From an uncultured Bacteroidales bacterium (lineage in GTDB: Bacteria > Bacteroidota > Bacteroidia > Bacteroidales > UBA932), in NCBI GenBank assembly GCA_949294195.1, contig CASFGK010000009.1, forward strand, positions 1-64,000: DNA of 64,000 nucleotides, read 5' to 3'. Under the pieces are notes generated by a model. It made no database searches and was not told the DNA's origin. It saw only the letters and a program-made list of their open reading frames with translations. This document shows positions 39,848-52,403 of this stretch, in pieces; the first letter of the stretch is position 1, and every line of letters starts with the position of its first letter. Both the position numbers and the translations under genes were made by a program.

Positions 39848-41146
39848 TCAGAGATTTCCGGCAATATACTGGTCATATGCGGACATGTCCACGAGCCCGT
39901 GTCCGGAAAGGTTGAAAAGCAGGACTTTGCTTTCACCTGATTCCCTGCATTTGAGAGCTTCGGCGACAGTCGCGGCAATTGCGTGGCATGATTCCGGCGC
40001 CGGGATTATCCCTTCGCATCTGGCAAACATGCATCCGGCCGCAAAAGAATCGTGCTGTCCTATATCGACAGCTTCCATATACCCGTCTTTCAGCAGTTGG
40101 GAGACAATTACTCCTGCACCATGGTATCTGAGCCCTCCGGCATGAATGTTTGCAGGAGTGAAGTCATGCCCCAGAGTGAACATCGGCATGAGAGGAGTAT
40201 AGCCCGCTTCGTCCCCGAAATCGTATCCGAATTTTCCTCGGGTGAGCTTCGGACAGGCTACCGGTTCCGCAGCCACGAATCTTGTCTTCCTTTCACCCGA
40301 GAAAACATGCCTCATGAATGGGAAGGATATTCCTCCGAAGTTGGACCCTCCGCCGAAACATGCTATCACGACATCGGGATATTCTCCCGCCATTTCCATC
40401 TGTTTTTCGGCTTCCAGCCCGATTACAGTCTGGTGCAGGGCAACGTGGCTCATCACGGAGCCCAGAGTATACTTGCAGTCAGGGGTCATCCTGGCAAGTT
40501 CCACGGCCTCTGAAATGGCTGTTCCGAGCGAGCCCTGGTGATGCGGGGTTCTGGTGAGGATGTCTTTCCCGGCTCTGGTGGACATTGACGGCGACGGTGT
40601 AACCTGTGCTCCGAAAACCTGCATCATGCTGCGCCGGTACGGCTTCTGCTCATAACTGATCCTGACCTGATACACGGCTGCTTCCAGTCCGAAAAGCCGG
40701 GCGGCATAGGACAGGGCCGTGCCCCACTGGCCGGCTCCCGTTTCAGTGGTCACGTTCTTCACGCCTTCCTTTTTGCAGTAGTACGCCTGCGCGAGAGCCG
40801 AATTCAGCTTGTGCGACCCAACAGGACTGACACTTTCGTTCTTGAAATATATATGCGCCGGAGTGTCGAGTTCCTTTTCCAGTCCGTATGCGCGGACAAG
40901 AGGTGTTGGCCTGTAGTACGTATACTGTTCCCTGACTTCATCCGGAATGTCGAACCATCTGTGTTCGGTATCGAGTTCCTGTCTGCACAGTTCCCTTGCG
41001 AAAACGGGATACAGATCCTCTTCTTTTACCGCCTGACGTGTAGCCGGATTCAGCATCGGCTGTGGCTTTACCGGCATGTCAGCCTGGATATTGTACCATT
41101 GCGAGGGGATTTCGTCTTCCCTGAGGAAAAATCTTTTCTGTTTCAT
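39848..41146 (-). CDS. TrpB2-type tryptophan synthase beta-like PLP protein
   Basis: A fold-type II PLP enzyme of 432 residues that is close to TrpB2 rather than TrpB1. It has the characteristic WYNIQADMP N-terminus, the PLP lysine in NESVSPVGSHKLNSALAQAYYCKKEGV, and GGGSNFGG and ACFGGGS motifs. TrpB2 proteins can make tryptophan from serine and indole without a TrpA partner. A TTG at 41176 would add 10 residues, but ATG at 41146 fits family N-termini. The gene starts 28 bases downstream of an sdhC terminator. Confidence 0.92.
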   Translation of the reverse strand: MKQKRFFLREDEIPSQWYNIQADMPVKPQPMLNPATRQAVKEEDLYPVFARELCRQELDTEHRWFDIPDEVREQYTYYRPTPLVRAYGLEKELDTPAHIYFKNESVSPVGSHKLNSALAQAYYCKKEGVKNVTTETGAGQWGTALSYAARLFGLEAAVYQVRISYEQKPYRRSMMQVFGAQVTPSPSMSTRAGKDILTRTPHHQGSLGTAISEAVELARMTPDCKYTLGSVMSHVALHQTVIGLEAEKQMEMAGEYPDVVIACFGGGSNFGGISFPFMRHVFSGERKTRFVAAEPVACPKLTRGKFGYDFGDEAGYTPLMPMFTLGHDFTPANIHAGGLRYHGAGVIVSQLLKDGYMEAVDIGQHDSFAAGCMFARCEGIIPAPESCHAIAATVAEALKCRESGESKVLLFNLSGHGLVDMSAYDQYIAGNL

Positions 41147-41173
41147 CTGTCTGTCGTTTATGTGGTTCAAGGA

Positions 41174-41203
41174 CAAAAAAACGGGCCGCCGCAGGCAGCC
41201 CGT
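41174..41203 (-). terminator. Intrinsic terminator between sdhC and trpB2
   Basis: On the minus strand ACGGGC and GCCCGT pair around an 11-base GC-rich loop, and a run of seven T follows. It ends the sdhC transcript, since the sdhC stop codon is 25 bases upstream. The trpB2 ATG is only 28 bases beyond the T-run. No promoter box is visible in between. Confidence 0.85.
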
Positions 41204-42848: not shown

Positions 42849-43412
42849 ATGTTAGATAAAGCAAAAGAAATCCTTGACGGAGCGAAATCCAAGATGAGCG
42901 ACGCCGTGAGGTTCCTTGAAGAGGATCTGAAGACATATCGTGCAGGAAAGGCCAATCCTCTTGTCTTCAACAATATAATGGTTGACTACTATGGCTCTGA
43001 GACTCCTGTGCCTCAGGTGGCTTCAGTTACCACTCCGGATGCAAAGACAATTCTTATCCAGCCGTGGGAGAAAAAGATGATACCGGTGATAGAAAAGGCT
43101 ATAATGGACGCCAACATCGGTCTTACTCCGCAGAACAACGGAGAACATATCCGCTGTGTCGTTCCGCCTCTTACAGAAGAGAGAAGAAAAGAACTCATCA
43201 AGAAGGTAAAGACAGCCGGAGAGAATTCCAAGATCGTCATCAGGAATGCGCGCAGGGATGCTATCGATGCACTCAAGAAAGCGCAGAAAGAAGGTCTTCC
43301 TGAAGATGTCCAGAAAGATTACGAGCAGAATGCCCAGAAAGAGACCGATGCTTATGTAAAGAAAGTGGACGAGCTCTGCGCTGCAAAGGAAAAGGAAATC
43401 CTTACTGTCTGA
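42849..43412 (+). CDS. frr: Ribosome recycling factor
   Basis: RRF splits post-termination ribosomes together with EF-G. The 187-residue protein starts MLDKAKEILDGAKSKMSDAVRFLEEDLKTYRAGKANP and has the conserved TILIQPWEKKMIPVIEKAIMDANIGLTPQNNG. I chose the ATG at 42849 because the longer frame from 42660 overlaps pyrH and is not conserved in the family. Its stop is followed by 120 bases before the pheA attenuator promoter. Confidence 0.95.
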   Translation: MLDKAKEILDGAKSKMSDAVRFLEEDLKTYRAGKANPLVFNNIMVDYYGSETPVPQVASVTTPDAKTILIQPWEKKMIPVIEKAIMDANIGLTPQNNGEHIRCVVPPLTEERRKELIKKVKTAGENSKIVIRNARRDAIDALKKAQKEGLPEDVQKDYEQNAQKETDAYVKKVDELCAAKEKEILTV

Positions 43413-43516
43413 TAAAGTTTTGATAATCAGTGTATTCCTTGGTAGACCGCATCGTTGTATGCAGGCCGGAAAAAATTTAATGCCGGCTGGATGGTCGTAC
43501 TAAAGGAAAAATTTTG

Positions 43517-43525
43517 TAGTTTTGC
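43517..43525 (+). promoter_or_regulatory. -7 element driving the pheA operon leader
   Basis: TAGTTTTGC matches TAnnTTTG(C). It lies 7 bases before the ATG of the Phe/Tyr leader peptide. Confidence 0.7.
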
Positions 43526-43532
43526 TCCCGTT

Positions 43533-43592
43533 ATGATGGATTTTCGATTTAACGACTTCGGTTTTTATTATTTCTATTACCAGGAAAGGTGA
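43533..43592 (+). CDS. Phe/Tyr-rich attenuator leader peptide of the pheA operon
   Basis: This short frame encodes MMDFRFNDFGFYYFYYQER, 19 residues with five phenylalanines and four tyrosines, including the run FYYFYY. It lies directly upstream of pheA and just before a strong intrinsic terminator. This is the layout of a translation-coupled attenuator leader (as in E. coli pheL). When charged tRNA-Phe or tRNA-Tyr is scarce, the ribosome would stall at the FYYFYY codons and promote antitermination. There is no tryptophan codon. Confidence 0.75.
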   Translation: MMDFRFNDFGFYYFYYQER

Positions 43593-43666
43593 TGGACCGG
43601 AAGTCGCGTATCGTAATAAATGAGGTTTTAAGGGCTGTCCGGTAGTATAGCGGACAGCCCTTTTTC
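43553..43666 (+). promoter_or_regulatory. Attenuator RNA of the pheA operon with terminator
   Basis: Segment 1 CGACTTC (43553-43559), inside the leader peptide gene, pairs with GAAGTCG (43600-43606). The FYYFYY codons are in the loop. Segment 2 ACCGGA (43596-43601) can instead pair with TCCGGT (43638-43643), the inner part of the terminator's left arm. The terminator stem GGGCTGTCCG (43632-43641) and CGGACAGCCC (43651-43660) has five T after it. Freeing segment 2 would therefore block the terminator. The pairing is read directly from sequence. Function is inferred. Confidence 0.72.
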
Positions 43667-43752
43667 TGTGTGCCGGCGCGACCGGGCTCATTGCGGCTTG
43701 CAGTACGTGAGGAACATGCAGATGAACGGGAACCGGAATATTTTCAGAGAAT

Positions 43753-44640
43753 ATGGATATAATGAAAAGAGTAGCGATCCAAGGCTTTGCAGGATGTTTT
43801 CATGAACAGGCCGCAAGACTGTTCTACGGCAGGGAAGAAGCCTGGGGTCATGCCGGCTTCCGGCAGGACGGAAATCCTGTGAAGCTGGAGATCGTGGAAT
43901 GCAGCACTTTTGACGGTCTGTATGAATCTTTGTCCGGCGGAAAGGCGGACGCAGCTGTAATGGCAATAGAGAATACCGTCTCCGGCGGACTGCTGCCGAA
44001 TTTCGAACTCCTTCGCAAGCATGATGTAAAGATAAAGGGAGAAGTCTTTCTGCGCATCTGCCAGAATCTCATGGTCATGCCGGGGCAGAAAATAGAGGAT
44101 ATACATGAGGTGAGAACACACTATATGGCTATCAATCAGACCAGACAGTTCTTTTCCGCATATCCGCATATCCGGCTGGTGGAGTCCGATGATACAGCCA
44201 AGAGTGCCGCGGATATCGCCACCGGTAAAATATACGGGGTGGGAGCAGTCGCCTCTTCTCTTGCGGCCGAACTCTACGGCCTGGAAATAATAGCCCCCGG
44301 CATCGAGACCTACAAGCAGAATTTCACAAGGTTCCTTATTATGGATGACAAGGTGGACGTTCCCGAAGAGCGTATTGACAAAGTCTCCCTGTGCTTCACC
44401 CTTCCTCACAAGGCAGGTTCTCTGGCACAGGTCCTCACCATCCTTTCTTTCTATGATATGAACCTGACCAGAATCCAGTCTCTGCCGATCCCTGGCAGGG
44501 AATGGCAGTATTTCTTCTATGTGGATATCAAATTCGATTCATATAAACGTTATACACAGGCTCTTTCAGCTGTACGACCGTTGATGGAGGACCTGAAGGT
44601 CCTGGGAGAATACAGAAGTTTCAAACCGAAGGAATCATGA
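43753..44640 (+). CDS. pheA: Prephenate dehydratase
   Basis: This enzyme converts prephenate to phenylpyruvate, the committed step to phenylalanine. The 295-residue protein has the catalytic domain (VAIQGFAGCFHEQAARLFYG and IENTVSGGLLPNFELLRKHDV) and a C-terminal ACT domain that would bind Phe (VSLCFTLPHKAGSLAQVLTILSFYDMNLTRIQSLP). It has no fused chorismate mutase, which is supplied by the last gene of the operon. Its TGA overlaps the next ATG. The upstream attenuator makes amino acid control likely. Confidence 0.95.
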   Translation: MDIMKRVAIQGFAGCFHEQAARLFYGREEAWGHAGFRQDGNPVKLEIVECSTFDGLYESLSGGKADAAVMAIENTVSGGLLPNFELLRKHDVKIKGEVFLRICQNLMVMPGQKIEDIHEVRTHYMAINQTRQFFSAYPHIRLVESDDTAKSAADIATGKIYGVGAVASSLAAELYGLEIIAPGIETYKQNFTRFLIMDDKVDVPEERIDKVSLCFTLPHKAGSLAQVLTILSFYDMNLTRIQSLPIPGREWQYFFYVDIKFDSYKRYTQALSAVRPLMEDLKVLGEYRSFKPKES

Positions 44641-45872
44641 TAATAAGACCAGCACGCAGGACGGAAAACATAAACGAGTATTATTTTTCTGCCAAACTTA
44701 AGGAAATAGACAGACTCAATGCAGTCAGGTCAGAGGAAGGGAAGGACAGGATCATCAATTTGGGGATAGGTGCTCCTGACGGGATGCCTCCGGTACAGGC
44801 CATTGAGGCACTTGTGGAGTCAGCCCGCCAGCCCGGAAACCATGCATATCAGAGCTATACCGGTATTCCGGAACTCAGGCAGGCTTTTGCAGAATGGTAC
44901 AGGCGGTACTATGGTGTAGAGCTTGATCCGGCTGCTGAAATCCAGCCGTTGGTCGGGTCCAAGGAAGGGATTCTGCTGCTTTCCCTTGCATTCCTGAATG
45001 AAGGGGACAAAGTGCTTGTCCCGGATCCCGGGTATCCTACCTATTTGTCCGCTACGGCTCTGGTGCAGGCGGAACCTGTGAAATATGATCTGGTAGAGGA
45101 AAACGGCTGGCAGCCTGACTTTGATGCGCTCGAAAAGACTGACCTTACAGGCGTCAGGATGATGTGGACCAACTATCCCAACATGCCTACCGGAGCGCCT
45201 GCGACAGAGGAACTTTACAGAAAACTTGCAGACTTCGGACGCAGACACGGGATAATGATATGCAACGACAATCCGTACAGTTTCATACTGAACGACCGTC
45301 CTTTGTCTATCCTCGGTGTCCCGGGAGCCAAGGAATGTTGTGTGGAACTGAATTCCCTGAGCAAGGCCCACAATATGTCCGGATGGAGAATAGGAATGGC
45401 GGCGGCTTCCGGAGAAGTCATATCGCAGCTGCTCAAAGTCAAGAGCCAGATGGATTCCGGAATGTTCAGGCCGTTGCAGCTGGCCGCTGTACAGGCTCTT
45501 TCCCAGAGACCGGAATGGTTTGAGTCCCTTAATGCCGAATACAGGAAAAGGAAAGTCCTGGCCGGGAAGATATTCGATATGATAGGAGCTGAATATGATC
45601 CCGGCAGTATGGGAATGTTCCTCTGGGGGAAAGTCGGCAGTGACAATCCTCTGGCAACGGAAGGTCCTGACGGCAGTCCTCTTGGGGCCGGAGAGGATCT
45701 CCGCTCACCAGGTGAGAAAGTATCGGACAGGATTCTCTATGGGGCAGGAGTATTCATTACACCCGGTTTCATATTCGGGAAGAACGGTCGCGACCATATC
45801 CGCATTTCGTTGTGTGCCGGTCCGGAAATCCTGGAAAATGCGGCGGAGAAAATCAGAGAGCTGATGGGATGA
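44637..45872 (+). CDS. Aminotransferase class I/II in the aromatic operon
   Basis: A PLP-dependent fold-type I aminotransferase of 411 residues, probably for phenylpyruvate/4-hydroxyphenylpyruvate or prephenate. The PLP lysine is in NSLSKAHNMSGWRIGMAA. It resembles the LL-diaminopimelate/aspartate aminotransferase branch (LGIGAPDGMPPVQAI, DPGYPTYLSATAL, NYPNMPTGAPAT). Context suggests the last step of Phe and Tyr synthesis. The start overlaps the pheA stop by four bases. Confidence 0.92.
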   Translation: MIIRPARRTENINEYYFSAKLKEIDRLNAVRSEEGKDRIINLGIGAPDGMPPVQAIEALVESARQPGNHAYQSYTGIPELRQAFAEWYRRYYGVELDPAAEIQPLVGSKEGILLLSLAFLNEGDKVLVPDPGYPTYLSATALVQAEPVKYDLVEENGWQPDFDALEKTDLTGVRMMWTNYPNMPTGAPATEELYRKLADFGRRHGIMICNDNPYSFILNDRPLSILGVPGAKECCVELNSLSKAHNMSGWRIGMAAASGEVISQLLKVKSQMDSGMFRPLQLAAVQALSQRPEWFESLNAEYRKRKVLAGKIFDMIGAEYDPGSMGMFLWGKVGSDNPLATEGPDGSPLGAGEDLRSPGEKVSDRILYGAGVFITPGFIFGKNGRDHIRISLCAGPEILENAAEKIRELMG

Positions 45873-45930
45873 CGGGAACTTCCGGGTGTCAACTGCCGCC
45901 CGGAGCCTGAATCCGCATATTGGAAAATAT

Positions 45931-46821
45931 ATGGAAAGACAGTATATAATGACAGTCATTGGCCTTGGCCTTATAGGAGGATCAATGGCAGTAGACCTGA
46001 AGCGGCGCGGCTTCGCATCTCAGGTGCTTGGAGTGGAAGCAGACCCGGTCAATGCAGCCGCAGCGGAGAAAATAGGTCTTGTAGATGAAGTGCTCCCTTT
46101 CGCAGAAGGTGTATGCAGGGGGGAAATTATAGTCCTGGCTGTACCGGTGGGAGAAGCTGTCCGTATGCTTCCGGAGATTCTGGACATGTTCGGCGGAAAG
46201 GGATCCGGGACGGAGGAAGCAAGGGAAAATCCGGGGAAGATCGTTATAGACGTATGTTCCACAAAATCCTCGTTGGTCAGGGCTGCGGAAGGACATCCGA
46301 TGCGCGGACGCTACGTTTCCACCCACCCGATGGCAGGAACCGAATATTCAGGTCCGTGGGCAGCCATGTCCGGAATGTTCGACGGGAAAGCCTGTGTGAT
46401 ATGTGACAGCGCAAAATCCGGACAGGATGCACTTGACGTCATAGAAAAAATGTATGATGTGCTGAATATGAGGACTATACGTATGGATGCCTCCAACCAT
46501 GACATGCATGCGGCATATGTATCCCATATTTCCCATGTGACATCTTTTGCCCTGGCCCTTACAGTGCTTAAGCAGGAACGCAGCGACAGGCATATTTTCG
46601 ATCTTGCCTCAGGAGGGTTCTCTTCTACGGTCAGGCTTGCAAAAAGCAATGCTGACATGTGGGTCCCGATCCTTACCCAGAACAGGGACAATGTCCTGGA
46701 TGTCATCGATACCTATATGGAGGAAATGACTGCATTCAGGGATGCGATAGCCACAGAGGACGGAGCCAGGATACGGGAGCTTATCGGGGAGGCGAACAGA
46801 ATCCGCAGGATCATCAAATAG
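45931..46821 (+). CDS. tyrA: Prephenate dehydrogenase
   Basis: TyrA-type enzyme that oxidises prephenate to 4-hydroxyphenylpyruvate for tyrosine. The 296-residue protein starts MERQYIMTVIGLGLIGGSMAVDLKRRGF, a Rossmann NAD(P)-binding motif GLGLIGG, and has the catalytic STHPMAGTEYSGPWAAM and the substrate-binding block HDMHAAYVSHISHVTSFALAL. A GTG at 45886 would add 15 residues lacking conservation. Regulatory ACT domain is absent. Confidence 0.94.
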   Translation: MERQYIMTVIGLGLIGGSMAVDLKRRGFASQVLGVEADPVNAAAAEKIGLVDEVLPFAEGVCRGEIIVLAVPVGEAVRMLPEILDMFGGKGSGTEEARENPGKIVIDVCSTKSSLVRAAEGHPMRGRYVSTHPMAGTEYSGPWAAMSGMFDGKACVICDSAKSGQDALDVIEKMYDVLNMRTIRMDASNHDMHAAYVSHISHVTSFALALTVLKQERSDRHIFDLASGGFSSTVRLAKSNADMWVPILTQNRDNVLDVIDTYMEEMTAFRDAIATEDGARIRELIGEANRIRRIIK

Positions 46822-46887
46822 AAACGGCAGTCACCCCGGCCGCAGTTGAAGAAGAAAAGGAAAAACAAATCAAAAACAATAGTAATT

Positions 46888-47994
46888 ATGGAAAGGAAAT
46901 TGGAAATCGTACCTCTTTCTCAGTGGAATCTTTTCCCTGAGGGGCAGCCCAGGGTGATAGCCGGACCTTGCAGCGCAGAGTCTGAAATCCAGGTGATGGA
47001 GACGGCCAGAAGAATCAAATCGCTGGGTGTAGACGTATTCCGGGCAGGTATCTGGAAGCCGAGAACCCATCCGGGAACATTTGAAGGAGTCGGCACTCCA
47101 GGCCTGAAGTGGATGCAGAGGGTCAAGAATGAACTTGGCATGAAGATATGTACCGAAGTGGCCAGCGAGCGCCATGTATTCGACTGCATGAAATACGGAG
47201 TGGATATGGTCTGGCTGGGAGCCAGGACTACAGCCAATCCGTTTCTGGTTCAGGAGATTGCAGAGGCTCTCAGGGATGTGGACATTCCGGTGCTTGTAAA
47301 GAATCCGGTAAGTCCTGACCTGGATCTGTGGATAGGGGCCCTCGAGAGGCTCAATCAGGTCGGGGTGAAGAAAATAGGTGTCATTCACAGGGGATTCTCC
47401 ACATTCGAGAAAATCCAGTACAGGAATTCTCCGGAATGGCAGATTGCGATTGAGCTGAGAAGCCGCTATCCGCAGCTTCCGTTCTTCTGTGATCCGAGCC
47501 ACATGGCCGGCAGCACGAAGTATATCGAAGAGATTTCACAGAGATCTCTCGATCTCGGTCTGGACGGTCTGATGATAGAGACACACTGTGACCCGACATG
47601 TGCATTGAGCGATGCGAAACAGCAGCTTACGCCCGAACAGCTGGGAGACATGCTCGGACGTCTGGTGGTCAGGAACCAGGATTCGGACAATGTCGAATAT
47701 AAGGAAAACATAGACCAGCTGCGCGCAAAGATAGACGTCATCGACGACAGCATCCTGTATACTTTGGGCTCAAGGATGAGAATCAGCCATCAGATCGGCG
47801 AATACAAGAAAAAGAACAATATCGCTATTCTCCAGACATCCCGTTGGGATTCGGTACTGGAAAGGGTGATAGCAAAAGGGGCGGAGTACGGACTGTCGGA
47901 AAAATTCGTCTCGACTCTTTTCAATGCTATCCATGATGCTTCAGTCCGGGAACAGAATTCTATCCTTGAAGGAAATCGCGGAGAAGACAAGTAA
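46888..47994 (+). CDS. Fused DAHP synthase - chorismate mutase
   Basis: This enzyme joins the first step of the shikimate pathway (DAHP synthase) and the branch point (chorismate mutase). The N-terminal domain (about 1-260) is the KDO8P-synthase-like type, with RVIAGPCSAESEIQVMETARRIKSLGVDVFRAGIWKPRTHPG and DPSHMAGS. The C-terminal AroQ domain (about 275-360) starts YKENIDQLRAKIDVIDDSILYTLGSRMRISHQIGEYKKKN. The mutase domain may also give inhibition of DAHP synthase. ATG 46888 avoids a 14-residue lysine-rich TTG extension. It overlaps the convergent lpxK by 35 bases. Confidence 0.94.
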   Translation: MERKLEIVPLSQWNLFPEGQPRVIAGPCSAESEIQVMETARRIKSLGVDVFRAGIWKPRTHPGTFEGVGTPGLKWMQRVKNELGMKICTEVASERHVFDCMKYGVDMVWLGARTTANPFLVQEIAEALRDVDIPVLVKNPVSPDLDLWIGALERLNQVGVKKIGVIHRGFSTFEKIQYRNSPEWQIAIELRSRYPQLPFFCDPSHMAGSTKYIEEISQRSLDLGLDGLMIETHCDPTCALSDAKQQLTPEQLGDMLGRLVVRNQDSDNVEYKENIDQLRAKIDVIDDSILYTLGSRMRISHQIGEYKKKNNIAILQTSRWDSVLERVIAKGAEYGLSEKFVSTLFNAIHDASVREQNSILEGNRGEDK

Positions 47995-49099
47995 AGCGAT
48001 GCTTCTCTTCCCCGGAAAGGAAATCTACGGTGATAGGTATCCGGAACATTCTCTGTCTGAGTGTTCCGGATATGTTTTTGCATTCCATAAGTCTCTGGCT
48101 GTCCTTTTCGGTGGTGACTATTACGGCAGTAGGGTGAGCCTTCACCGCCTTTCCGATGCATCTTATGTCTGACTGTGTAAAGGCATGGTGGTCAGGGAAC
48201 GAGAGCTTTTCCGAAATTTTATAAGAATCGCTCAAATACATCATCATAGGTTTGTCGTTGGCAATGCCTGTGAGCATTATTGCCTGTTTGGAATATGTGT
48301 ATCTGGGTTCCCCGTCCTGGAATACGGCCTCGGGAGCACAGTATCGGATCCGGGTGAAGAAAATATGGATTTTCCGTCCTTTCCTGTCTGTGGCAGTGCA
48401 TGTACGGGGATCGAATCCCTTGAGATGCAGTTCTGAAGCGACATATTCCGCCTTGTCCTTGTCTTCAAGATATGCCGGGGATTTGGTCACGATGATGATG
48501 TCTGCTTCGAGCATCCGTTCCGGGAGATCCCTGAGTCGCCCTGCAGGTATGAGGCTGTCTTTGAATACAGGTCTGCCGTAGTCCGCCAGCACTATGGAGA
48601 CTGTCGGATTCAGTGCCCGGTACTGGAAAGCGTCATCCAGGATAATGAGGTCTTGAGGTTCAATGCTCTTGTCAATACACTTCCTGGCCTTTTTCGAAGT
48701 CTGGAGCTTATCGGGGTGTACCAGAAAGTCACATCCGCGGATACGGTTGCTGTCTACTGCCACTGTGGTATGAGGAAACTTCCGTCTGATCTGGAGCGGT
48801 TCGTCCCCGTAGGCGCTTGCCGGACCTTCCGGGCTGACCTGCTGGAAGCCTTTTGTCTTTCTTTTGTAGCCTCTGGAAAGGACAGCTACCTTCCTGTCTT
48901 TCCAGTACGGGTCGGAAGCAAGCAGGCGGAGCAGCATTTCCGTATGCGGAGTCTTTCCTGTCCCGCCTACGGTCACATTCCCGACTGAAATGGTCGGGAC
49001 TTCGGCCGGTCTGCTCTTCCGGATGCCTTTGTCATATAGGAAATGTCTGAATTTCAGCGCCAGGTAATATGGCGACAAAAGAATGCGGTCTATCATCAT
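47960..49099 (-). CDS. lpxK: Tetraacyldisaccharide 4'-kinase (lipid A synthesis)
   Basis: LpxK phosphorylates the 4' position of the lipid A disaccharide precursor at the inner membrane. It has 379 residues. An N-terminal membrane-associated helix comes first, then the P-loop in VPTISVGNVTVGGTGKTPHTEMLLRLL, and conserved LSRGYKRKTKGFQQV, GDEPLQI, DDAFQYRAL. The C-terminal region TTEKDSQRLMECKNI is typical. Its 3' end overlaps the DAHP synthase gene by 35 bases in convergent orientation. Confidence 0.95.
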   Translation of the reverse strand: MMIDRILLSPYYLALKFRHFLYDKGIRKSRPAEVPTISVGNVTVGGTGKTPHTEMLLRLLASDPYWKDRKVAVLSRGYKRKTKGFQQVSPEGPASAYGDEPLQIRRKFPHTTVAVDSNRIRGCDFLVHPDKLQTSKKARKCIDKSIEPQDLIILDDAFQYRALNPTVSIVLADYGRPVFKDSLIPAGRLRDLPERMLEADIIIVTKSPAYLEDKDKAEYVASELHLKGFDPRTCTATDRKGRKIHIFFTRIRYCAPEAVFQDGEPRYTYSKQAIMLTGIANDKPMMMYLSDSYKISEKLSFPDHHAFTQSDIRCIGKAVKAHPTAVIVTTEKDSQRLMECKNISGTLRQRMFRIPITVDFLSGEEKHRFTCLLRDFLQG

Positions 49100-50354: not shown

Positions 50355-52403
50355 ATGAAAAACCTACTCCTTGAAATCTCCATGACGGCAGCAGTTTTCT
50401 GCCTTTCTGCCGCCGTTTCAGCCAGGGATATTCCGCATGGTACGGATATGGGTATGTATTGGCCTGAAGGCCAGGCTTTTCCTCATTTTTCAACTCCTGC
50501 CGACACGCTGTACGGACTTTCCATGGAGGAAGGCCGCCTTCCGGCAGAAGAGAGGGTCATGTTTTCTGCTCTTCAGGGTATTGTGAACAGGACAAGGCCC
50601 AGGATATTCCTTTTCGACCATGAGAGGGAAGGAAAATACAAATGGCCTGACATTATGGGGCTTGCAATCAGCGAGGTACCCGTAGACAAGAGATTCTCCC
50701 TGGTCTCGGGATATGCCGGAGAACTGAAAGGGGTGGTGCTGTACGACATGGAAAAAAGCGGGCATTATGCAAACCTGGCATCTTCCGTGGGCGGACTCCT
50801 GAATGCTTTGCCTGTCACGGAAAGGCTTTATGAAGAGATGGTGTCGCATGGTGCCGGTCTGCCCGTCGTTGCCGATTTTACGGATCTTCCGTATACGCGC
50901 CCTCAGGAAATATACGACTATCTTTTCGAAAATTACGGAAGTATGCTTTCGGACCGGCTGCTGGTCAGCCTGCGCCCCGGGCTGGCTTATGTCCGTGACC
51001 TTGCTGTAGCTTCCGGCGCGGCCGTAGTCTGGCTTGATCCCAGAAAGTGGCCTGAAAATACCGTCCTGCGCAAGTTTCTTTCAGCCATGACTCCGGGAGA
51101 AAGCATCATTACAGGATGGTATCCTGAAGAGAGGTCCGGAATAGGTCTTGCCACTGAGTACGGACTTTCGACAGTACCTTCGGATTTCTATGAGAACACC
51201 ACTGTCTATGCCGGTATGCCCCACGACATCCGGTATCCTGCGGTCCCGAAGATGCCGCGGCTTGAAAACAAGGTGTATCTTGCGATTTTCCTCAGTGACG
51301 GCGACAATGTCCAGTATTGCCAGCATGCCATGTCCGGGCTTTGGGACAAGGCAGGACGCGGGACAATGCCTATAAACTGGACTGTAAGTCCCGCACTTGC
51401 GGATCTGGGTCCGGGAATCCTCAACTACTATTACAGTACGGCGACTCCTTTCGATTTCTTTGCTTCAGGTCCTTCCGGCATGGGGTATTCCCTTATATAT
51501 GATGCGCACAACTATTTGTGGAATTCCGTTTCCGGAGAGGTTTTCCGCCCTTATGCGAAACTTACCCAAAAGTATTTGGAAAAGAGCGGTCTGCGTGTTA
51601 TAACGATATGGGACGAAGTGAGTAGGGAGCAGATGGAGGAATACGCCGTGAACTGCCGCTATCTGTATGGCCTCACGCAGCAGGACTGGGAACGCAGGCC
51701 GTACAAGGTGCCTGTATATGTAGCAGGCAGCCGTCTGGCGTTTATCCCGAACCTGCCTTGTTACGCAAGCGGTGTGGATGTAATATATTCTTTCTGGGAA
51801 GATGACATAAAGGCTTTTGACGGCAAGGCTCCGCTGTTCCTGACAGCTCAGGGTGAATCCTGGAAAATGGGTCCGGACAATGTCGCCGGACTGAAAGACC
51901 GGCTCGACAGTCTTTCCCGAGGAAATATAGTAATCTGCCGCGGAGACCATTTCTTCAATCTGTACAACCAGGCCAACGGGCTGCCGTTCAACCTCACACT
52001 TCTTCCTGATATGGAAATCATGGCAGACGATACTTCTGCCGACGCATGCACACTGGCTGACGGGTCCTGTTCCGAGGCCCGGATGTGGGTGGGCAGGAAC
52101 AGGACCGCAAGCGTGGTCCTGGATTTCAAAAGGAACTATCTGATAGAGAGATACGTTGTCAGGCATGCGGGTGCCGCAGGACAGCCTGCCATGCTGAATA
52201 CAGATGAGTTTACCGTTGAGGTGAGCAGAAACGGAAAGGACTGGACACAGGCCGGATGCGTGACAGGAAACAGTGACGACGTCACGGATGCCGATATCAT
52301 TCCGGTTACGGGCAGATATTTCAGGCTGACTGTAAAAAATCCCGGAAATGACGGAACAGTGCGGATCGCCGACCTGGAAGTATATGGCAGAGAGACAAAA
52401 TAA
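50355..52403 (+). CDS. GxGYxYP-domain secreted protein (putative glycoside hydrolase)
   Basis: A 682-residue exported protein with signal peptide (MKNLLLEISMTAAVFCLSAAVSA). The GxGYxYP_N and GxGYxYP domains follow: MFSALQGIVNRTRPRIFL, LAIFLSDGDNVQYCQHAM, GPSGMGYSLIYDAHNYLW. A C-terminal F5/8 type C (discoidin-like) carbohydrate-binding domain starts at about 575 (ASVVLDFKRNYLIERYVVRHAG). The family is called a putative glycoside hydrolase, but catalytic residues are not established to my knowledge. It is transcribed on its own and may act on host or dietary glycans in the periplasm or at the surface. Confidence 0.85.
   Translation: MKNLLLEISMTAAVFCLSAAVSARDIPHGTDMGMYWPEGQAFPHFSTPADTLYGLSMEEGRLPAEERVMFSALQGIVNRTRPRIFLFDHEREGKYKWPDIMGLAISEVPVDKRFSLVSGYAGELKGVVLYDMEKSGHYANLASSVGGLLNALPVTERLYEEMVSHGAGLPVVADFTDLPYTRPQEIYDYLFENYGSMLSDRLLVSLRPGLAYVRDLAVASGAAVVWLDPRKWPENTVLRKFLSAMTPGESIITGWYPEERSGIGLATEYGLSTVPSDFYENTTVYAGMPHDIRYPAVPKMPRLENKVYLAIFLSDGDNVQYCQHAMSGLWDKAGRGTMPINWTVSPALADLGPGILNYYYSTATPFDFFASGPSGMGYSLIYDAHNYLWNSVSGEVFRPYAKLTQKYLEKSGLRVITIWDEVSREQMEEYAVNCRYLYGLTQQDWERRPYKVPVYVAGSRLAFIPNLPCYASGVDVIYSFWEDDIKAFDGKAPLFLTAQGESWKMGPDNVAGLKDRLDSLSRGNIVICRGDHFFNLYNQANGLPFNLTLLPDMEIMADDTSADACTLADGSCSEARMWVGRNRTASVVLDFKRNYLIERYVVRHAGAAGQPAMLNTDEFTVEVSRNGKDWTQAGCVTGNSDDVTDADIIPVTGRYFRLTVKNPGNDGTVRIADLEVYGRETK

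Follow-up and report, generated by a model that had tools for sequence, protein, structure and literature searches.

The leader of pheA in Escherichia coli and other Proteobacteria (Rfam family RF01859) and the trp and his attenuators have a leader peptide rich in the operon's own amino acid, alternative RNA stems, and a terminator placed before the first gene. The E. coli pheA leader is a Phe-only leader. The multivalent attenuators of enterobacteria stand ahead of ilvGMEDA (Ile, Val, Leu) and thrABC (Thr, Ile).

In 2010, leader-peptide systems were stated to have been shown, to the knowledge of the authors, only in Proteobacteria and Actinobacteria before their own Firmicutes case (PMC2965389). 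A comparative survey of the same year by Lopatovskaya and colleagues, cited in PMC4833913, may already include some elements of the kind considered here. In mycobacteria, regulation by leader peptides was proposed for cysteine-rich upstream ORFs, in a discussion that also takes in leaderless transcripts, and was called speculative (PMC4633059). In Bacteroides thetaiotaomicron, short ORFs reminiscent of leader peptides are reported (PMC7366714). The Bacteroid-trp motif (RF01692) is a candidate cis-regulatory RNA of Bacteroidetes that is linked to trp by its name (PMC2864571). Closest to the present case, a conserved structured 5′ element that has no Rfam hit was found before pheA, between genera, in Flavobacteriaceae in 2021, along with strong indications that amino-acid operons are preceded by leader-peptide attenuators (PMC9723704). 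Among the matches listed for Bacteroidetes or Bacteroides leader peptides, attenuation and pheA, no other title or abstract opening describes the element. A structured 5′ element of pheA is therefore already on record in Flavobacteriaceae, and the candidate attenuator described below is of that known kind.

The window, which is the whole stretch of 64,000 nucleotides that was analysed, contains a gene for a short Phe- and Tyr-rich peptide ahead of a Phe/Tyr operon. The peptide, its conservation, the alternative RNA pairings with their covariation, and the position ahead of the cognate operon are read directly from the sequences. The element is very probably a transcription attenuator of the trp/phe/his type, operated by the translating ribosome, that would read charged tRNA-Phe and tRNA-Tyr together. 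The features are as follows.

43517–43524, + strand: −7 promoter box TAGTTTTG, of the TAnnTTTG type, read at this position
43533–43592, + strand: leader peptide gene, MMDFRFNDFGFYYFYYQER plus TGA, conserved in relatives
43553–43561, + strand: strand 1 of the protector stem, partner 43597–43598 and 43600–43606
43573–43596, + strand: inner hairpin across the final control codons together with the stop codon (consensus hairpin columns 48–70)
43596–43606, + strand: strand 2, common to the protector and the antiterminator
43633–43643, + strand: strand 3, common to the antiterminator (with 43596–43605) and the terminator
43631–43665, + strand: intrinsic terminator, stem 43632–43641/43651–43660, then TTTTT
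43753–44640, + strand: pheA, prephenate dehydratase (PF00800), with ATG 43762 as alternative start
44637–45872, + strand: class I/II aminotransferase (PF00155), second gene of the operon
45931–46821, + strand: tyrA, prephenate dehydrogenase (NF006307, above cut-off), start chosen within frame 45886–46821
46888–47994, + strand: DAHP synthase–chorismate mutase fusion (PF00793 and PF01817), start chosen within frame 46846–47994
48037–48073, + strand: terminator-like hairpin past the last gene, probable operon end (consensus scan only)

The leader gene starts at ATG 43533, with a second in-frame ATG at 43536 as an alternative start, and stops at TGA 43590–43592. Its 19 residues include five Phe and four Tyr. 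The promoter box, the leader of this length and composition, and the terminator with its run of five T all lie where the first-pass annotation had placed them. The peptide was said to end in FYYFYY; its actual C-terminal end is FYYFYYQER. The terminator arms are GGGCTGTCCG at 43632 and CGGACAGCCC at 43651, with TTTTT at 43661–43665. This terminator was omitted by the terminator-like consensus scan, which had a loop limit of 8, and was recovered by our own scripts. The pairing of CGACTTC at 43553 with GAAGTCG at 43600 is correctly positioned, but it had been described as enclosing the control codons, and Phe codons 4 and 6 fall outside the 43553/43606 stem. Likewise, the antiterminator is found at ACCGGA 43596 and TCCGGT 43638 but is longer than proposed, with 10 pairs and one bulged G (43596–43605 with 43633–43643). 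The arms of the inner hairpin, 43573–43581 with 43588–43596, lie inside the first (protector) stem.

The operon products were assigned by Pfam and NCBIfam matches. Upstream of the leader, frr ends at 43412. The named relatives of pheA come from Candidatus Cryptobacteroides or from uncultured Bacteroidales or Bacteroidia. About 2.4 kb upstream of the leader, 39848–41176 on the − strand has a translation that we take to resemble the tryptophan synthase beta chain. Downstream of the operon, a 682-aa frame (50355–52403) has no NCBIfam match at E 0.001.

Chance occurrence was controlled within the window. The leader has seven Phe/Tyr in eight codons, and it is the sole frame with more than five when ATG-started frames of 8–40 codons are considered on both strands of the 64 kb; the next best is one frame with five in eight codons. 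A scan for terminator-linked frames returned the leader as the only Phe/Tyr frame, and one weak Trp frame when other amino acids were sought. The region 43524–43670 folds with z = −4.1, which none of 200 shuffles equalled.

The DNA before pheA was read at 140 loci of the genus, comprising 60 of 84 pheA places and the best 80 of 175 named loci. Since the 24 places left out are mostly distant (25–31% identical, often the genome's only match) or contig-end pieces, the genus figures are valid for close pheA only. A leader was defined as a frame with at least five Phe/Tyr in eight codons within 450 nt before pheA, and such a frame is present at 89 of the 140 loci. After removal of duplicates, 75 of the 89 leader loci are distinct, and there are 127 distinct regions of 300 nt. 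The leader is found in 77 of these 127 regions, to be compared with 2 of 127 in antisense and 44 of 2540 shuffles. With a threshold of at least seven Phe/Tyr, 39 of the 127 regions are retained, and none in antisense or shuffles. All 89 leaders are followed by a terminator with a first arm that reads GCTGTCCGG or departs from it by one to three changes.

Presence of the leader goes with the space available. At genus loci with a leader (79 loci), 103–573 nt separate the upstream open frame from pheA; at 45 of 48 leaderless loci, the gap is at most 97 nt or the open frame runs into pheA. The upstream "genes" here are open frames of at least 80 codons and not annotations, and the association is partly built in because a leader cannot fit into a gap under about 100 nt. 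Three loci are exceptions. In L067 the leader is at −536, beyond the scanned stretch, and was scored as lacking. L113 is a decayed copy that lost the leader and kept the GCTGTCCGG terminator between the upstream gene and pheA, and L042 has neither. In 14 genomes with a leaderless pheA, no copy was found elsewhere with the covariance model R1, which can miss diverged copies. Genome G083, with a leaderless pheA, has a sparser leader before an aminotransferase gene. Three other genomes (G054, G070 and G073) gave no match in the search for pheA places and none with R1.

One hexamer of the leader gene stands out in nucleotides. CGATTT (Arg-Phe; 43545–43550 in the window) is near-invariant, being found in 72 of 77 genus leaders, with CGA in 72 of 75 at that codon; it is found in 10 of 55 leaders of the order and 0 of 17 of the class. 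In the 40 nt after it, most subgroups have an RTCG that might pair with it, but only 4 of 14 members of the RFSAY subgroup do.

In what follows, "order" designates the other families of the order, and "class" the class beyond the order. The order sample was anchored on PF00800, which had a match in 68 of 148 genomes, and 64 of 69 places were examined. A leader lies within 400 nt of pheA at 57 of these 64 loci. With the 300-nt test, it is found in 55 of 62 regions (antisense, 6; shuffles, 83 of 1240). The other 7 loci have no leader in the scanned stretch; for one of them, L201, no more than 24 nt of upstream sequence is available, and another scored as leaderless, L233, has two units at −742 and −511, beyond that stretch. 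In the class, 33 places were retrieved and 2 were left out besides the window's own; the leader is present in 17 of 27 regions by the 300-nt test (antisense, 3; shuffles, 23 of 540), and the other 10 loci have no such leader in the scanned stretch. In the other classes of the phylum, 71 places were retrieved and 24 left out. Only 2 of 47 loci have a leader, 0 of 27 in a first sample, of which 16 came from one family, and 2 of 20 in a broader second sample from other families. The element thus occurs commonly within the class and seldom beyond it, and some pheA genes of the class have no leader. A description of the leader as confined to the class was dropped, as it is present in L297 and L304. 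The pheA proteins behind these two leaders begin like those of the class. All locus counts are numbers of related sequences, uncorrected for relatedness, and not of independent events. Counting with R1 in the order was abandoned. At 6 of 14 loci (L163, L164, L165, L168, L169, L170), it matched a terminator-like structure without a Phe/Tyr leader, and the counts therefore rest on pheA-anchored searches.

Two leaders, those of L151 and L267, precede a gene matching the aminotransferase of the window (52% and 61% identity) and not pheA. That of L267 is sparser in Phe/Tyr.

Loss of the leader frame in relatives had been named in the first-pass annotation as grounds for giving up the attenuator. 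On the contrary, the frame, the terminator and the antiterminator are conserved far beyond the genus. That related bacteria keep the same arrangement suggests a shared way of sensing both amino acids.

Terminators were counted with a strict rule, at least 8 pairs with 5 G-C. They follow 135 of 149 leaders, compared with 5 of 1490 shuffles: 77 of 77 in the genus, 45 of 55 in the order and 13 of 17 in the class, versus 2 of 770, 3 of 550 and 0 of 170 shuffles, respectively. With a lenient rule, all 149 leaders pass (54 of 55 in the order when counted from the last Phe/Tyr), and so do 295 of 770, 192 of 550 and 47 of 170 shuffles; the strict count is quoted for this reason. The antiterminator is stronger than in dinucleotide shuffles (p < 0.05) at 51 of 77 loci in the genus, 45 of 55 in the order and 12 of 17 in the class, and is not significant at the remaining 26, 10 and 5. 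The protector, formed by strands 1 and 2, passes the same test at 51 of 77, 25 of 55 and 10 of 17 loci. It is not significant at 26, 30 and 7 loci, respectively, and p is 0.06 in the window.

The letters of the antiterminator change wholesale outside the genus, with pairings such as GGCAGGA/TCCTGCC, GAGCAGGA/TCCTGCTC or AGCGGGA/TCCCGCT; it is significant there in 57 of 72 loci, with 55 distinct sequences of strand 2. Within the genus, strand 3 is nearly invariant, whereas most of the drift in the opposite arm of the terminator passes through G-U pairs; this is the pattern predicted for a shared strand. The outer pair of the antiterminator is A-U in 28 genus sequences, U-A in 13, G-U in 6, U-G in 2 and C-G in 1, unpaired in 8 and a gap in 17. 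Counted without alignment, it forms in 53 of 74 sequences, with a maximum of 49 in 2000 shuffles; one of the 75, L027, did not fit the pattern of this count. Only 2 antiterminator pairs are changed on both sides in the genus, no more than in shuffles, 372 of 500 of which reach 2. The number of cells changed on both sides (18 versus 7.4 in shuffles) and the covariation score exceed those of all shuffles. In the terminator, 6 of 10 pairs have changes on both sides. Among these loci, which are related sequences, the antiterminator is thus kept with changed letters.

The competition between these pairings was evaluated by folding. Since the leading edge of the ribosome lies 12 nt past the A-site codon, the model was set with this footprint, the second arm of the terminator not yet being made. 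The predicted probability of the antiterminator in the window is 0.38–0.76 with the A site at codons 1–3, 0.88–0.97 at codons 4–18 and 0.48 at codon 19, and it falls to 0.00 with the A site at the stop codon. Across loci, moving the ribosome from the last Phe/Tyr codon to the stop codon lowers the sequestration of the terminator arm by at least 0.3 in 41 of 77 genus, 49 of 55 order and 16 of 17 class loci, and the reverse never occurs. Mean sequestration is 0.82, 0.80 and 0.74 in the genus, order and class, compared with 0.63, 0.52 and 0.54 with shuffled spacers. In the genus, the strength of this modelled switch test is moderate.

The completed terminator wins in every computed case for the window, so the choice between antiterminator and terminator must be kinetic. 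In a ribosome-free transcript ending past strand 3, the probability is 0.83 for the antiterminator and 0.09 for the protector. Consequently, any role that the protector may have when the leader is untranslated would require that it win by forming first. Given this weakness without a ribosome, untranslated leader transcripts may escape the textbook-style shut-off. The textbook logic ascribed to the locus is supported, by prediction, for the leader, the antiterminator and the terminator; the protector is weaker than had been stated.

From these elements, we infer the following course of events in the cell. RNA polymerase would start just ahead of the leader gene and a ribosome would follow. When both amino acids are plentiful, the ribosome would reach the stop codon at 43590 and cover strand 2, and the terminator would form before pheA. 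When charged tRNA-Phe or tRNA-Tyr is short, the ribosome would wait at one of the nine control codons, leaving strand 2 free to pair with strand 3; the terminator would be blocked and the whole Phe/Tyr operon transcribed. Either shortage would suffice. As regards the attenuator class, the locus has a leader with codons for the end products and a terminator between leader and pheA, and it is predicted to form an antiterminator that a stalled ribosome would set free and that would keep the terminator from folding.

The position of the promoter box bears on the loading of the ribosome. In 43 of the 75 distinct genus loci, as in the window, exactly 8 nt lie between the end of the TAnnTTTG box and the leader ATG; the others comprise 27 with another distance, 4 without an exact box, and 1 cut short. 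The box is located at −12 to −5 relative to the transcription start (PMC9723704), and transcription of the window's leader presumably starts near 43529, about 4 nt ahead of the first ATG. Because the box ends 8 nt before the ATG, the leader mRNA of the genus is probably nearly leaderless, with about 4 nt 5′ of the ATG. In B. thetaiotaomicron, 5′ ends under 10 nt are rare, about 3.7% (PMC7366714). Where the box is exact, it lies within 10 nt of the ATG at 1 of 36 order loci and at 15–32 nt at 32 of 36, and at 8 nt at 1 of 8 class loci.

Two leader-plus-terminator units stand in series before pheA at 12 of 62 order loci (L174, L186, L191, L196, L199, L204, L207, L216, L220, L225, L230 and, further upstream, L233), at 0 of 128 in the genus, and at 1 of 27 in the class, L258, where the A/T-rich distal hairpin is doubtful. 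A second unit within 260 nt before the proximal leader was found at 11 of 55 order loci, compared with 1 of 55 in antisense and 2 of 550 shuffles. Comparison of 10 pairs of first and second units revealed no split into a Phe sensor and a Tyr sensor. To our knowledge, tandem leader-peptide attenuators are unusual. In one genome of the genus (G141; L145, L156), a second copy of the leader lies about 550 nt upstream of the first, and no such terminator is evident in the stretch.

A wider reading of the pheA attenuator of Bacteroidia, at most of the sampled loci, is tentative, and we lean slightly against it as a whole. Phe and Tyr would constitute one interchangeable signal; Cryptobacteroides would have a near-leaderless type with promoter box and start codon held 8 nt from each other, in which the ribosome would load as soon as RNA appears; and other families of the order would have two complete tandem units that multiply repression.

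Which amino acids are sensed can be considered from the codons. An alignment of relatives had been proposed to look for conserved Phe/Tyr codons; the two kinds of codon replace each other at the same positions of the leader. At positions whose commonest residue is Phe or Tyr, a single-base codon change leaves one of the two in place in 145 of 166 cases, 123 of them by exchange of TTY and TAY, whereas random single changes would do so in 2 of 9. At least two Phe and two Tyr are present in 75 of 77 genus, 51 of 55 order and 17 of 17 class leaders. Because of this interchange at the same positions, dual sensing of Phe and Tyr is favoured. It is conceivable that only one of them is sensed in practice, for example Phe, which has five codons, or Tyr, to which the last codons ahead of strand 2 belong, the others being filler. 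According to the folding, a stall anywhere at codons 4–18 frees strand 2, so that one amino acid could suffice, and two of the 55 order leaders have Phe and no Tyr. This is nevertheless improbable, as both residues occur at least twice in nearly all leaders, Phe and Tyr give way to each other far more often than to other residues, and the operon makes both. Trp is found in 1 of 77 leaders in the genus, 17 of 55 in the order and 4 of 17 in the class (for example L193, L194 and L256). As DAHP synthase serves Trp synthesis too, Trp may possibly be a third signal in some species, where the leader would be a three-amino-acid sensor.

Two other explanations dispense with hungry codons. The nascent aromatic-rich chain could itself stall the ribosome in the exit tunnel, as an arrest peptide. 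The dense aromatic run would fit, as would the Arg-Phe that precedes it and is conserved in the genus (CGATTT in 72 of 77 leaders), but the order of Phe and Tyr is unconserved, the flanking residues differ widely outside the genus, and CGATTT is found in only 10 of 55 leaders of the order and none of 17 of the class; arrest by the peptide is thus quite unlikely. Alternatively, the hairpin could be the terminator of the upstream frr, combined with a chance Phe/Tyr-rich frame and without regulation, since frr ends at 43412 and the terminator lies between frr and pheA. Conservation of the frame, codons, pairings and position extends to the order and the class, where the controls are close to zero, and the leaders of L151 and L267 precede an aminotransferase-like gene instead of pheA. 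We consider this coincidence barely credible. An attenuator that would sense Phe and Tyr together is retained as the explanation of the element.

The window was compared with Rfam families. There is no match at gathering cut-offs, including those of RF01859 (Phe_leader), T-box and RF01692 (Bacteroid-trp). Up to E 10, the region 43450–43760 gives three unrelated weak matches, none of them to RF01859, T-box or RF01692. Up to E 1, 16 loci (15 relatives and the window's own, L002) give 10 matches, all below the cut-offs. Membership in RF01859 was rejected, the sole match being the distal leader unit of L157 with 36.9 bits for a cut-off of 55 (E 0.017). Membership in the Leu or Thr leader families was also rejected, the matches of the L161 and L166 leaders being below cut-off.

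Although the window stays below the cut-offs of all Rfam families, the element precedes pheA in 55 of 62 regions of the order and in 17 of 27 of the class. If the attenuator works as proposed, it would show how transcription is coupled to translation in a large gut and environmental group with unusual promoters, and dual-amino-acid sensing could be tested in one reporter. The near-leaderless type raises the question of how a ribosome can keep up with the polymerase if it has to load on about 4 nt of 5′ sequence, and the tandem type that of whether two attenuators multiply.

The element of Flavobacteriaceae precedes the same gene; the main text describing it gives no leader sequence, Phe/Tyr specificity or wider survey (PMC9723704). 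The mycobacterial ORFs are likewise short upstream leader ORFs and differ in being cysteine-rich and actinobacterial (PMC4633059). The Bacteroid-trp motif is also a cis-RNA of Bacteroidetes, and its model has no match in the window. With the E. coli pheA leader and the trp and his attenuators, the window has in common the leader peptide, the alternative stems and the terminator before the first gene. It differs from the E. coli pheA leader in that Phe and Tyr codons are mixed and that the operon includes tyrA. Unlike ilvGMEDA and thrABC, it uses other amino acids, belongs to another phylum and matches no Rfam leader family, but as in those two, a single leader carries codons for more than one end product of the operon.
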